A DNA stretch of 64,000 nt from Deltaproteobacteria bacterium (GCA_016214955.1 JACRMN010000007.1:186001-250000), one strand, 5' to 3'. Counted from the stretch's first letter, positions 20,620 through 24,630 are shown. Made by a program: numbers and translations. The notes: generated from the letters alone by a model not told the origin.

Positions 20620-20787
20620 CTACGCGGCCAGCTGCTTCTTCAGCTTGGTCTGCAGCTTCTTGGCCGCGTCGCAGTCCTCGCACTTGGCCGAGGCCTTCTT
20701 GGCGTGCACCTGGCACGTCTCCAGGCAGTTGCCCAGCGACTGGACCAGCATCCGCAGCTCCTTGGCCGACAGCTTCACCTCGGTCAT
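20620..20787 (-). CDS. Small four-cysteine protein of unknown function
   Basis: A 55-residue, lysine-rich helical protein. It contains four cysteines in two pairs, C21-x3-C25 and C36-x2-C39 (NCLETC, KCEDC), with a His at 28, and ends KKLQTKLKKQLAA. The pattern suggests a helical hairpin that binds a metal or forms disulfides. ATG at 20787 has GAGGAG upstream at proper distance; the frame is open farther upstream without a start as good. It is the last gene of a leftward run that includes thioredoxin reductase and thioredoxin. No family recognised with certainty; ferredoxin-like four-helix Cys proteins are an alternative. Confidence 0.7.
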   Translation of the reverse strand: MTEVKLSAKELRMLVQSLGNCLETCQVHAKKASAKCEDCDAAKKLQTKLKKQLAA

Positions 20788-20913
20788 CGGTTCTCCTCCT
20801 CGAAGGGACTGCGTCGGGTGGCGACGGTCGAAGTATCGACCCCGGGGTCCGGGGCCGTCACCAGGTTTCCGGGGTTCAGTGTGCCGCACCCGCGCGCACC
20901 GGGCGGGTGCGGA

Positions 20914-21858
20914 TCACCGGGCCGCCACCGGCTTGTGGTCCTTCACGTACTTCTGGGCGGCCAGCGCCGCGATGGTGCCGTCGGCCACCGCGGTGGTGAT
21001 CTGGCGGAACTTCTTCTGGCGCAGGTCGCCGGCCACGTAGAGCCCCGGCACCTGCGTGGACATGTCCTCCTGCGTCTCCACGTAGCCCCAGGGGTTGAGC
21101 GGCAGGAGCCCCTTCACCAGGTCGGCGCGGGGGACGTAGCCGATGAACACGAAGACGCCGTCGGTCGCGAGCTCGGTGACCTCCTTGGTCTTCACGTTCT
21201 CGATCTTGAGCTTGTCCAGCCCCTTCTCGCCCAGGAACTCCCGCGGCTCCGAGTCCCAGATCACCTTGATCTTGGGGTGGTGCAGCGCCTCCTCGGCGAT
21301 GGCCGCCTCGGCCTGGAAGTGGTCGAACTGGTGGATGATGGTGACGCTGCGGGCGAACTGGGTGAGGAAGAGCGACTCCTCCACCGCCGAGTTGCCGCCG
21401 CCCACCACGTGGATGTCCTTGCCCTCGAAGTAGGCGCCGTCGCAGGTGGCGCAGTAGCTGATGCCGCGCCCCTTGAAGCGGGACTCGCCCGCCACGCCCA
21501 GGTCGCGAGGCTTCGCGCCGGTGGCGACGATGACCGCCGGGGCCTCGACCTCCTCCTCCTCGTCGAGCTCGAAGCGCTTCACGGGACCCGAGAGATCGTG
21601 CTTGGTGATCTCCACCGCCCGCCGCACCTTGGCGCCGAAGCGCTCCGCCTGGGCGGAGAAGGCCTTGGCCAGGTCGGTGCCCTTCACGTCCTCGGGGAAG
21701 CCGGGATAGTTGGAGACCTTGTGGGTTGTCTTCACCTGTCCACCGGGGACGCTCTCGTCGAGCACCAGCGTCTTCAGGCGGGCCCGGGATGCGTAGATGG
21801 CTGCCGTGAGGCCGGCCGGTCCGGCGCCCACCACGATCACGTCGTACTTCTCTGCCAT
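20914..21858 (-). CDS. trxB: Thioredoxin-disulfide reductase
   Basis: A 314-residue FAD/NADPH flavoenzyme reducing thioredoxin. The FAD motif is GAGPAGLTAA (residues 11-20), the redox pair is CATC (C136, C139), the NADPH motif is GGGNSAVEES and the FAD C-terminal motif is YVAGDLRQKKFRQITTAVADG. Length and order match low-Mr TrxB. ATG at 21858. The thioredoxin gene 23 bp upstream forms its operon partner. Together with adjacent Cys-rich mini-proteins this looks like a dedicated reductant supply rather than the housekeeping pair, though that is inference. Confidence 0.92.
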   Translation of the reverse strand: MAEKYDVIVVGAGPAGLTAAIYASRARLKTLVLDESVPGGQVKTTHKVSNYPGFPEDVKGTDLAKAFSAQAERFGAKVRRAVEITKHDLSGPVKRFELDEEEEVEAPAVIVATGAKPRDLGVAGESRFKGRGISYCATCDGAYFEGKDIHVVGGGNSAVEESLFLTQFARSVTIIHQFDHFQAEAAIAEEALHHPKIKVIWDSEPREFLGEKGLDKLKIENVKTKEVTELATDGVFVFIGYVPRADLVKGLLPLNPWGYVETQEDMSTQVPGLYVAGDLRQKKFRQITTAVADGTIAALAAQKYVKDHKPVAAR

Positions 21859-21881
21859 GGCGTTCTCCTGGCGGCGGGGCG

Positions 21882-22217
21882 CTAGCCCAGCATCGCCTCG
21901 ACCTGGGCCTTGATGGCGGTGCGCTTGATGTCCTCGCCGCCGAGCCGCTCCCCCACCTCCTGCCCGTTCTTGAAGAAGACGAGGGTGGGGCTCCCGGTCA
22001 CGCCCAGCTTGCTGGCGAGGTCGCGGTTGCCCTGGCGGAAGATCTTGAGGAATGTGGCCTTGCCGGCGAACTGCTCGGCGACCGCCTCGTACTTGGGGGC
22101 GAGGGCCTCGCAGGGCGGGCACTCGGTGGAGAAGAAGTCGAGGACCACCGGCCCGGCGGCCTGGGCCACCTCCCGCTCGTATTCGGCGCCGGTGATCTCC
22201 TTCACGTGCTGGCTCAT
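21882..22217 (-). CDS. Thioredoxin-like protein with ECPPC active site
   Basis: A 111-residue cytoplasmic thioredoxin. The active site is TECPPC (C33, C36) instead of the standard WCGPC, and the cis-Pro motif is VTGSPTLVFFKNGQEV. The lack of Trp and Gly in the active site suggests a changed redox potential or partner. The ATG at 22217 is preceded by AGGAG; the frame upstream would extend to 22328 without a signal. It begins the thioredoxin/TrxB leftward unit. Relatives with CPPC sites occur in selenium and arsenic gene neighbourhoods, which fits the ArsM-like gene nearby, but this is weak evidence. Confidence 0.9.
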   Translation of the reverse strand: MSQHVKEITGAEYEREVAQAAGPVVLDFFSTECPPCEALAPKYEAVAEQFAGKATFLKIFRQGNRDLASKLGVTGSPTLVFFKNGQEVGERLGGEDIKRTAIKAQVEAMLG

Positions 22218-22332
22218 GATCGGGTCTCCTGGAGCGCCGTTGGCTCGCGCTCGTCTCGTCCCGTGGGAGCCAGCATCGTGCGGGAGGAGTCGCGCACCGT
22301 GCCGCGGCGCCGCGCCGCGCGACCCCATAGAC

Positions 22333-22358
22333 GGAGGGCCGCCTCGCGGCGGCCCTCC
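22333..22358 (-). terminator. Strong terminator hairpin downstream of the Cys-rich peptide gene
   Basis: Perfect 11-bp arms GGAGGGCCGCC (22333-22343) and GGCGGCCCTCC (22348-22358) close a TCGC tetraloop. It lies 25 bp after the stop codon of the 33-residue gene and 115 bp before the thioredoxin start. The stem has no T-tract, common in very GC-rich genomes. It would make the peptide gene a separate monocistronic unit. Confidence 0.6.
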
Positions 22359-22382
22359 GGATACCTCTTCGACCAGCGGGAG

Positions 22383-22484
22383 CTAGTCGTGGCAGCCCGA
22401 CACCAGCCGGGAGGCCTTGGCGCAGCACTGCGCGACCTTCTCGGCCGTGCAGCAGGACGCCTTGGGCTTCGTGAGCAGCTTCAT
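22383..22484 (-). CDS. 33-residue cysteine-rich peptide; candidate RiPP-like precursor
   Basis: A very small gene, MKLLTKPKASCC followed by TAEKVAQCCAKASRLVSG and CHD. Its cysteines are paired: C11-C12, C20-C21, then C31. ATG at 22484 has GAGGAGG directly upstream, 6 bp away. A strong hairpin follows the TAG stop, so it is transcribed on its own. It is divergent from an ArsM-like methyltransferase and a radical SAM/SPASM protein whose starts lie 124 and 794 bp away. A short basic leader-like N-terminus and clustered Cys near the C-terminus fit a substrate of a peptide-modifying radical SAM enzyme. A metal-binding or copper/arsenic chaperone peptide is an alternative. No database family was checked. 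Confidence 0.65.
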   Translation of the reverse strand: MKLLTKPKASCCTAEKVAQCCAKASRLVSGCHD

Positions 22485-22607
22485 GCTTCCTCCTCTCGGG
22501 CTCGGCTTCTCCGCCCGAGCATCCCATGGGAGCCTCGGGGGAGGGCGAGGATTCCTGGCGCGCGGCGAATCCTCCGTTCGCCGCCTGGCTCTCCCTGGAG
22601 GAGACCA

Positions 22608-23261
22608 ATGTCCCGTCGTGACGACACTTTTCGCGGTCGCGTGGCAGGCGCCACCCAGGCCCGCTACGACGGCCTCTCCACCGCCGGGTCGAGCCTCTCC
22701 TGCGGCGGCGCCCTCGACGACGCTGCCCCGCTGCCGGGCGAGACGGTGGTGGACCTGGGCTGCGGCCGCGGCGGCGACGTGGTGAAGGCCGCCGGGCGGG
22801 TGGGCCCCTCGGGCGCGGCGGTGGGCGTGGACGCGAGCCCCTCGATGCTGGCCGTCGCCCGCGAGCGGGCCGCCGGACATCCGCAGGCCCGCTTCGTCGA
22901 GAGCGACCTCGCCGCAGTGGCGCTACCCGACGGGCTCGCCGACGTGGTGGTCTCCAACTGCGCCATCAACCACGCGCCCGACAAGGCCGCCGTCTACCGC
23001 GAGATCCACCGGTTGCTGCGGCCGGGCGGCCGCTTCGCGGTCTCCGACGTGGTGTCGGAGGCGGAGCTTCCCGCCGCCGTGCGCGAGGACCCCGCCGCCT
23101 GGGCCGCCTGCTACGGCGGCTCCATCCCCGAGGCCGAGTACCTGGCCGCCATCGCCGCCGCCGGCTTCGCCGAGGTGGCCGTGCGGCGCCGCACCGAGCC
23201 CTACGAGAAGGGCGGCGTCCTCGTCCGCAGCATCACCGTGGAGGGGCGCCGCGCGCCCTGA
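22608..23261 (+). CDS. ArsM-like SAM-dependent methyltransferase
   Basis: A 217-residue class I methyltransferase. The SAM motif VVDLGCGRGGDVVKAA is near residues 47-62, and the fold continues with VGVDASPSMLAVARERA, LLRPGGRFAVSDVV and a C-terminal VLVRSITVEG. The pattern resembles arsenite methyltransferases. SNCAINHAPDK corresponds to their SNCVINL.PDK with a substrate cysteine, and AACYGGSIPEAEYL to the CxGGA region with a second cysteine. A third Cys lies early, in SLSCGG. These three sites suit As(III) or another soft metalloid or thiol. ATG at 22608 follows GGAGGAG by 4 bp. The radical SAM gene follows after 16 bp, so the two are an operon. Peptide or small-thiol methylation cannot be excluded. 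Confidence 0.85.
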   Translation: MSRRDDTFRGRVAGATQARYDGLSTAGSSLSCGGALDDAAPLPGETVVDLGCGRGGDVVKAAGRVGPSGAAVGVDASPSMLAVARERAAGHPQARFVESDLAAVALPDGLADVVVSNCAINHAPDKAAVYREIHRLLRPGGRFAVSDVVSEAELPAAVREDPAAWAACYGGSIPEAEYLAAIAAAGFAEVAVRRRTEPYEKGGVLVRSITVEGRRAP

Positions 23262-23277
23262 ACCCTCCGGAGCCGCC

Positions 23278-24630
23278 ATGAAGCTCTCGCGCCACGCCAT
23301 CCTCGCCCCCGTCTCCGGCCGCCCGGAGGTCCTGCTGGTGCAGCCGCTCTCCGGCCAGGCGGCGCTGCTCGAGCCCGGCCACGCCGAGGCGCTGCGGGCG
23401 CTGACCGGCGGCGGCGCGCTGCCCGCCGGCCTGCCCGAGGAGACGCTGCGTCAGGCCGGCTTCGTGGTGGACGGCGAGGTCGACGACGACCGGCTCCTGG
23501 CCGGCGCCCGCGCCGAGTGGAAGGAGGAGGCCTCGAAGACGCCCACCCAGCTGGTGGTGGTGCCCACCTTCGGCTGCAACCTGGCCTGCAGCTACTGCTA
23601 CCAGGAGCTCTTCGACCCCACCGCCCAGGGGCTCATGGCCCCCGAGGTCATCGACGCCTTCTACGCCTGGGTGGAGCGCCACCACGGCGGCGACTCGCCC
23701 CGCCCCTACGTCACCCTCTTCGGCGGCGAGCCGCTGCGCGACACCCCCGCCCACCGCGACCGCATCCTCCGCTTCCTCGCCGGCGCCCGCCGGCTGCGGC
23801 TGCAGGTGGCGGCGGTGACCAACGGCAACGACCTGGCCGCGCTGGTGCCGCTCCTCGCCGAGGGGCCGGTGAAGGAGATCCAGGTCACCCTCGACGGCCC
23901 GCAGGCGCTGCACGACCGGCGCCGCCCTCACAAGGGCGGCGCCGGCACCTTCGCCCGCATCGTCGAGGGCGTCGATGCCCTGGTGGCCGCGAAGATCCCG
24001 GTCAACCTGCGGGTGGTGGCCGACCGCGAGAACCTCGACGCCCTCCCGGAGCTGGCGGAGTTCGCCGCGGCCCGGGGCTGGCTCGATCTCCCCTCCTCCC
24101 GCTTCAAGACGCAGGTCGGGCGCAACTACGAGCTCTTCGGCTGCGCCAGCCGCCAGGAGAAGGGCGCGCTCTTCGACCGGGTGGAGCTCTGGGCCCGCTA
24201 CGTGGAGCTCTCCGAGGCTCACCCCATCCTGCGCCGCTTCCACCAGCCCCGCTTCCACGGCATGGGCCACCTGGCCGACACCGGCGAGCTCCCCGCCCCC
24301 AACTTCGACGCCTGCCCGGCCGCCAAGAAGGAGTGGGCCTTCGGGCCCGACGGCAGCGTCTACGGCTGCACCGCCACCGTGGGCCACCCGGCCCACCGGC
24401 TGGGCCGCTTCCACCCCGAGCTGGTCCGCGACGAGGAGGCCATCGCCCGCTGGCAGGGGCGCAGCACCCTCTCGGTGGAGGCCTGCCGGGGCTGCTCGCT
24501 CGCCCCGGTGTGCGGCGGCGGCTGCGGCGCCATCGCCTGGAGCCAGAAGGGCAGCGTGCTGGCCCCCGACTGCCGGCCGGTGCCGGAGCTCTACGGCCTG
24601 GGGGCCCGCTACTACGGCCTCGGGGCCTGA
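23278..24630 (+). CDS. Radical SAM/SPASM protein, peptide-modifying type
   Basis: A 450-residue radical SAM enzyme. An N-terminal domain of about 90 residues (MKLSRHAILAPV...) precedes the [4Fe-4S] motif C100-x3-C104-x2-C107 (CNLACSYCYQE). The TIM barrel contains LFGGEPL (SAM-binding Gly-Gly-Glu), VTNGND and VTLDGPQALHDRRRP, a hallmark of the SPASM peptide maturases. The C-terminal region carries many cysteines for auxiliary clusters: FDACPAAKKEWAFGPDGSVYGCTAT, then CRGCSLAPVCGGGCGAI and APDC. This architecture is that of anaerobic sulfatase maturases and RiPP maturases, not of lipoate or biotin synthases. The N-terminal domain resembles leader-binding domains of RiPP maturases. It is co-transcribed with the ArsM-like gene and lies next to the Cys-rich peptide gene, making the peptide a good candidate substrate. 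Confidence 0.88.
   Translation: MKLSRHAILAPVSGRPEVLLVQPLSGQAALLEPGHAEALRALTGGGALPAGLPEETLRQAGFVVDGEVDDDRLLAGARAEWKEEASKTPTQLVVVPTFGCNLACSYCYQELFDPTAQGLMAPEVIDAFYAWVERHHGGDSPRPYVTLFGGEPLRDTPAHRDRILRFLAGARRLRLQVAAVTNGNDLAALVPLLAEGPVKEIQVTLDGPQALHDRRRPHKGGAGTFARIVEGVDALVAAKIPVNLRVVADRENLDALPELAEFAAARGWLDLPSSRFKTQVGRNYELFGCASRQEKGALFDRVELWARYVELSEAHPILRRFHQPRFHGMGHLADTGELPAPNFDACPAAKKEWAFGPDGSVYGCTATVGHPAHRLGRFHPELVRDEEAIARWQGRSTLSVEACRGCSLAPVCGGGCGAIAWSQKGSVLAPDCRPVPELYGLGARYYGLGA

Follow-up and report, generated by a model that had tools for sequence, protein, structure and literature searches.

Positions 20,620 to 24,630 of a 64,000-nucleotide stretch from a Deltaproteobacteria bacterium (GCA_016214955.1, JACRMN010000007.1:186001-250000; the whole stretch is called the window below) hold genes for a radical S-adenosylmethionine (SAM) protein with a SPASM domain, a 33-residue cysteine-rich peptide, an ArsM-like methyltransferase, and thioredoxin with its reductase (TrxR). 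The radical SAM/SPASM enzyme, the peptide, the methyltransferase and the thioredoxin/TrxR pair are a conserved unit. By its anatomy, as read from sequence, this cassette is a radical SAM system of the ribosomally synthesized and post-translationally modified peptide (RiPP) type, and it falls outside every maturase, precursor and methyltransferase family named in the searched libraries. The explanation preferred here, to which about an even chance is given, is that the cassette makes a modified three-thiol peptide which, together with the ArsM-like enzyme, acts on As(III) or a metalloid akin to it. Within this explanation the RiPP part is strong and the arsenic part inferred.

Conservation and distribution of the unit

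The radical SAM protein was scanned against 84,980 species genomes, and sensitive profile searches covered the Myxococcota and Spirochaetota. The scan yielded 25 loci, mostly from Anaeromyxobacteraceae and other Myxococcota, together with two from Spirochaetes (38-40% identity). In nearly all of these loci that are sufficiently long, a peptide sharing this C-terminus is encoded next to the radical SAM gene; in two genomes (L052 and L053) it lies apart from that gene and adjoins thioredoxin reductase. When 393 Spirochaetota genomes were searched independently with the peptide profile and with the radical SAM protein, each was found in 36 genomes: both in 34, the peptide alone in two, the enzyme alone in two, and neither in 355 (Fisher p = 3e-44). 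The four unpaired cases are accounted for. In genome G079 a divergent, sub-threshold peptide is encoded about 2.3 kb away from the radical SAM gene, and three other genomes (G129, G248, G286) are truncated by contig ends. Among the Myxococcota the peptide is present in 23 of 195 genomes, and the distant members (L139-L142) share the operon. A preliminary description of the window had put forward, as the check on its proposal, that relatives should keep the peptide next to the radical SAM gene; they do so in both phyla.

Next to a paralogous radical SAM gene in the window's own genome (G000:C9) no such peptide was found. An origin from a mobile element or phage was rejected: the pattern has no match in viral contigs, and there is no plasmid member (the best plasmid hits show about 26% identity to known maturases). 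An anti-phage system was likewise set aside, the defence comparison having given generic radical SAM and methyltransferase matches only.

The peptide and the two enzymes

The window peptide is MKLLTKPKASCCTAEKVAQCCAKASRLVSGCHD, and its cysteines follow the pattern CC-x7-CC-x9-C, as first described. It has a leader (MKLLTKPK...) and a conserved C-terminal core, AQCCAKASRLVSGCHD. When 45 distinct coding sequences are compared, the final 16 codons spell AQCC[AST]KxSxxx[SA]GCHD, in which A, Q, C, C, K, S, G, C, H and D are invariant; the median ratio of nonsynonymous to synonymous substitution rates (dN/dS) in the core is about 0.08, which indicates strong purifying selection. Two divergent copies (L142 and L143) relax the residue preceding GCHD and give the wider core AQCC[AST]KxSxxxxGCHD. 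The leaders mostly start with MK[LS]L and are variable beyond. The first CC pair belongs chiefly to the Myxococcota and is missing in most Spirochaete homologues, so that the full CC-x7-CC-x9-C was rejected as the conserved pattern; homologues keep only the C-terminal CC-x9-C. A chance small open reading frame was ruled out by the recurrence of the peptide beside the enzymes in two phyla and by the low dN/dS of its core. No Pfam or NCBIfam model matches the peptide, and selenocysteine (TGA) does not replace Cys in any homologue examined.

In the radical SAM enzyme the ten cluster cysteines (three in CxxxCxxC and seven in SPASM) are invariant in 44 of 44 homologues, and the SPASM domain TIGR04085 is matched at 47 bits (cut-off 27). 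The top profiles are those of the Cys-rich-peptide maturases TIGR04463, CefB, geopeptide and PapB, with scores of at most 142 bits against cut-offs of 340-600. For TIGR04463 (cut-off 525 bits) the window enzyme reaches 131 bits and its homologue in L056 137 bits, and it is not a member; all scores for the CefB, geopeptide, PapB, Clo7bot and SCIFF maturase profiles are far under the curated cut-offs. The AlphaFold model has a predicted local distance difference test score (pLDDT) of 91, and residues 8-85 hold three strands and three helices resembling a RiPP recognition element (RRE). Its best fold matches are CteB (5why, 5wgg), followed by anSME, SuiB, TigE and ChlB. These profiles and this fold uphold the earlier assignment of the protein to the peptide-maturase type. 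A sulfatase maturase, named at that time as the identity that would speak against the proposal, is disfavoured, since the anaerobic sulfatase maturase profile TIGR03942 gives the window enzyme 56 bits against a cut-off of 349 and CteB stands ahead of anSME. The loop F-x-T-x2-GRNYEL is nearly invariant among homologues and may define a radical SAM subfamily.

Aligned with CmArsM, residues C32, C118 and C168 of the methyltransferase fall on C72, C174 and C224, which are reported to bind As(III) (PMC3877260). All 48 of the 48 cassette enzymes compared, with identities as low as 33%, keep this triad, whereas C52 of the SAM loop is replaced by Ser in some. The methyltransferase model has a pLDDT of 94.5, and the twelve PDB structures that match it best are without exception arsenic methyltransferases. 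The likeness to ArsM noted at the outset is thus confirmed by sequence, fold and the invariant As-binding cysteines. The cassette enzymes nevertheless score 145-202 bits with canonical ArsM (NF008823), below its cut-off of 263 (176 for the window enzyme, 202 for that of L112), and they form one clade (100/99 support) separate from the ArsM proteins that the same genomes or their relatives encode. Distances among the methyltransferases are correlated with those among the radical SAM enzymes (r = 0.93, 0/2000 permutations). Myxococcota members are nested among Spirochaetes in the methyltransferase tree, which suggests transfer of the unit between phyla. Outside the cassette clade, six ArsM-type genes with an in-frame TGA were seen in Anaeromyxobacter-family and related genomes (L151-L156, from G022, G053, G047, G009, G013 and G057); they probably encode selenocysteine forms of arsenite methyltransferase.

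The cassette has in common with the TIGR04463, CefB (NF038107), geopeptide (TIGR04280), PapB ranthipeptide and SCIFF/CteB systems an RRE-like N-terminus, the CxxxCxxC motif, SPASM cysteines and a neighbouring short Cys-rich precursor. It differs from them in its new precursor core and in the presence of an ArsM-like methyltransferase and thioredoxin/TrxR in the unit, and its maturase, at 142 bits or less, is far from the cut-offs of TIGR04463 (525) and CefB (600). With canonical ArsM/AS3MT (NF008823; PDB 4fsd, 6cx6) the cassette methyltransferase shares the fold, the SAM motif, the three As(III)-binding cysteines and a thioredoxin-type reductant nearby. Besides its separate clade and sub-cut-off score, it is set apart by the lack of the ArsM C-terminal domain, by the signature SNC..NHA in place of SNC..NLS, and by its almost obligate pairing with the peptide and the radical SAM enzyme. 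In the arsinothricin arsQML and arsenosugar ArsM/ArsS pathways, an organoarsenical is made by ArsM and a radical SAM enzyme (PMC8552651). The partnership of ArsM with a radical SAM enzyme is the likeness to the cassette; however, ArsL carries the CX3CX2C cluster motif only and acts on free As(III), and the arsQML cluster has neither a precursor peptide nor thioredoxin-TrxR. A literature search, with most subscription journals outside its reach, found no account of the peptide, of TIGR04463 substrates or of a link between ArsM and RiPPs.

Gene layout and neighbouring genes

A recheck of the sequence bore out all gene placements of the preliminary description for 20620-24630 (Table 1). The methyltransferase and radical SAM genes are divergent from the genes for the peptide, thioredoxin, TrxR and the 55-residue protein. 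The strong ribosome site reported for the peptide gene is present, about 6 nt before the ATG. Of the terminator also reported for this gene, the hairpin stands, but it has no T tract and a scan for consensus terminators makes no call.

Table 1. Features of the cassette in the window
Feature	Position	Strand	Evidence and remarks
33-aa precursor-like peptide	22383..22484	-	AGGAGG site; recurring core in >50 loci; stop TAG
ArsM-family methyltransferase, short form, 217 aa	22608..23261	+	ATG 22608, stop 23261; profile, fold, Cys triad C32/C118/C168
Radical SAM/SPASM peptide maturase, 450 aa	23278..24630	+	RRE-like N-terminal domain; CxxxCxxC at 100-107; seven SPASM cysteines; F-x-T-x2-GRNYEL at 276-286
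Thioredoxin, 111 aa, ECPPC	21882..22217	-	Profile match
Thioredoxin-disulfide reductase (TrxR), 314 aa	20914..21858	-	TIGR01292 359.8 bits, cut-off 343.45
55-aa four-Cys accessory protein, CxxxC and CxxC	20620..20787	-	Family co-inheritance; Myxococcota form only
Perfect 12-bp GC hairpin directly 3' of peptide stop	22331..22358	-	Terminator-like, without T tract

Spirochaetes carry the cassette as a compact operon of four genes, in most cases with a fused thioredoxin and reductase. The gene order is ArsM-peptide-radical SAM-TrxTrxR or TrxTrxR-ArsM-peptide-radical SAM, and the flanking genes are unrelated. Within the window's family, the 55-residue protein is encoded by 14 of the 17 genomes that have the cassette and by none of the 7 that lack it. 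C21, C25, C36 and C39 are invariant in its homologues, its gene is often directly upstream of the peptide gene, and no family model matches it. The inclusion of this protein and of thioredoxin/TrxR in the system, already proposed in the preliminary description, is supported by these gene neighbourhoods and by co-inheritance.

Several other genes were observed near individual copies. A gene for a MarR-type regulator, in most cases with an N-terminal Cys or CC, directly precedes the methyltransferase gene of the operon in six copies (L111, L112, L114, L119, L123, L126); these regulators might sense thiols or metalloids. In a single Spirochaete subclade the cassette is bordered by DUF5714 and DsrE-like genes (L117 5610-6302; L121 7481-8182; L124 9861-10607 and 5990-6418), and DUF5714 matches part of MbdU, a metal-binding double selenoprotein. 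The thioredoxin-TrxR gene is directly followed, in two Myxococcota, by a gene for an OPT oligopeptide transporter (L139 9529-11298, L140 9368-11092); a carrier of the peptide or of a peptide complex is possible. In two fen genomes whose radical SAM gene is elsewhere (L127, L128), the surroundings of the peptide gene have CcdA/DsbD-like and thioredoxin-like genes in common.

Proposed function and rival explanations

In the preferred explanation the radical SAM enzyme would bind the MK[LS]L... leader through its RRE-like N-terminal domain and would then make one or more radical-derived bonds, a crosslink or another change, in the core. The product is expected to stay largely cytosolic, because most operons have no exporter or protease. 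Its vicinal CC and third Cys could together hold As(III), methyl-As(III) or a comparable soft metalloid through three thiolates. A trithiolate site made of a vicinal CC and a third Cys is also found in the As(III) metallochaperone ArsD, which offers a lead; the likeness is limited to these cysteines, no sequence relation is shown, and ArsD is not a radical SAM substrate. The ArsM-like enzyme, with its triad kept and its C-terminal domain missing, would methylate the metalloid held by, or passed on from, the peptide. The dedicated thioredoxin/TrxR, often fused, would use NADPH to keep the thiols of peptide and enzyme reduced. The peptide would thus act as a genetically encoded thiol cofactor or carrier in metalloid methylation.

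Some links to arsenic come from genomic context. The G079 cassette is part of an ars island that also holds an ArsR-family regulator, a canonical ArsM (328 bits, cut-off 263), ACR3 (437 bits against a cut-off of 282.8) and an ArsC-like arsenate reductase (128 bits, under its cut-off), and the cassette of L140 adjoins a second ArsM, which belongs to the canonical clade. In the window's own genome about 54 kb separate ACR3 from the cassette, which puts ACR3 beyond the window. Spirochaetota with the cassette carry ACR3 more often than those without it (25/38 versus 102/355, p = 1.2e-5), an association confounded by descent. Several points weigh against the arsenic reading. Only a single cassette of about 60 is inside an ars island. 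The ACR3 association is gone within Anaeromyxobacteraceae, where 6 of 7 cassette-negative genomes also carry ACR3, and the statistic is accordingly taken as supporting evidence only. Maturases of Cys-rich peptides often form thioethers, and this would consume the proposed ligand thiols. Certainty is reduced because most copies have no ars neighbours and the thiols may be lost in this way.

It is also conceivable, though rather unlikely, that the methyltransferase is a RiPP tailoring enzyme with no arsenic link, which might act on the peptide itself and methylate a Cys thiol or another group of the radical SAM-modified product, while thioredoxin/TrxR keep the cysteines free during maturation. 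The near-constant association of methyltransferase, peptide and radical SAM enzyme, with their correlated distances (r = 0.93), would fit such a role, as would the short enzyme without the ArsM C-terminal domain and the location of most cassettes away from ars genes. Plain peptide methylation is nevertheless disfavoured because the triad is strictly conserved: it offers no reason for an As(III)-type triad to stay invariant to 33% identity while C52 varies, and the copy in the ars island of G079 also speaks against it. That the radical SAM and ArsM-like enzymes jointly build an arseno-RiPP, a ribosomal peptide with covalent, possibly methylated arsenic (As-S or As-C), in two phyla is improbable; such a product would be an organoarsenic peptide encoded in the genome.

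Several soft metalloids bind trithiolate sites, and selenium, tellurium, antimony or mercury could be handled by the trithiol peptide and the ArsM-like triad instead of arsenic. This is considered unlikely overall, even with ArsM-type selenoprotein variants and the sulfur- or metal-linked DUF5714/DsrE genes in relatives or near some copies. For selenium, the association of the cassette with selD in Spirochaetota is weak (21/38 versus 142/355, p = 0.08) and no peptide has a selenocysteine codon; 17 of the 38 cassette-bearing genomes are without selD, therefore selenophosphate is not required and selenium dependence was set aside as weak. A modified peptide serving as a redox cofactor or small redox protein for thioredoxin/TrxR, by a logic like that of mycofactocin or PQQ and with the methyltransferase as a maturation enzyme, would account for the thioredoxin-TrxR fusion in most Spirochaete operons and the apparently cytosolic product, and the invariant C-terminal HD could turn into a cofactor moiety. 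It is very unlikely, however, since the flanks share no dedicated client oxidoreductase and the As-type triad is left unexplained.

The peptides, with 30-50 residues and a nearly invariant 16-residue core, are a family overlooked by the searched gene-family libraries, linked to one radical SAM maturase subfamily and one ArsM subfamily with which it appears to move jointly between phyla. The genes of the cassette, all of them small, lend themselves to co-expression in E. coli, which makes the system directly testable. If the metalloid reading is true, the cassette would be, to our knowledge, the first RiPP machinery for metalloid chemistry, and anaerobes would gain a gene-encoded thiol carrier for arsenic methylation.

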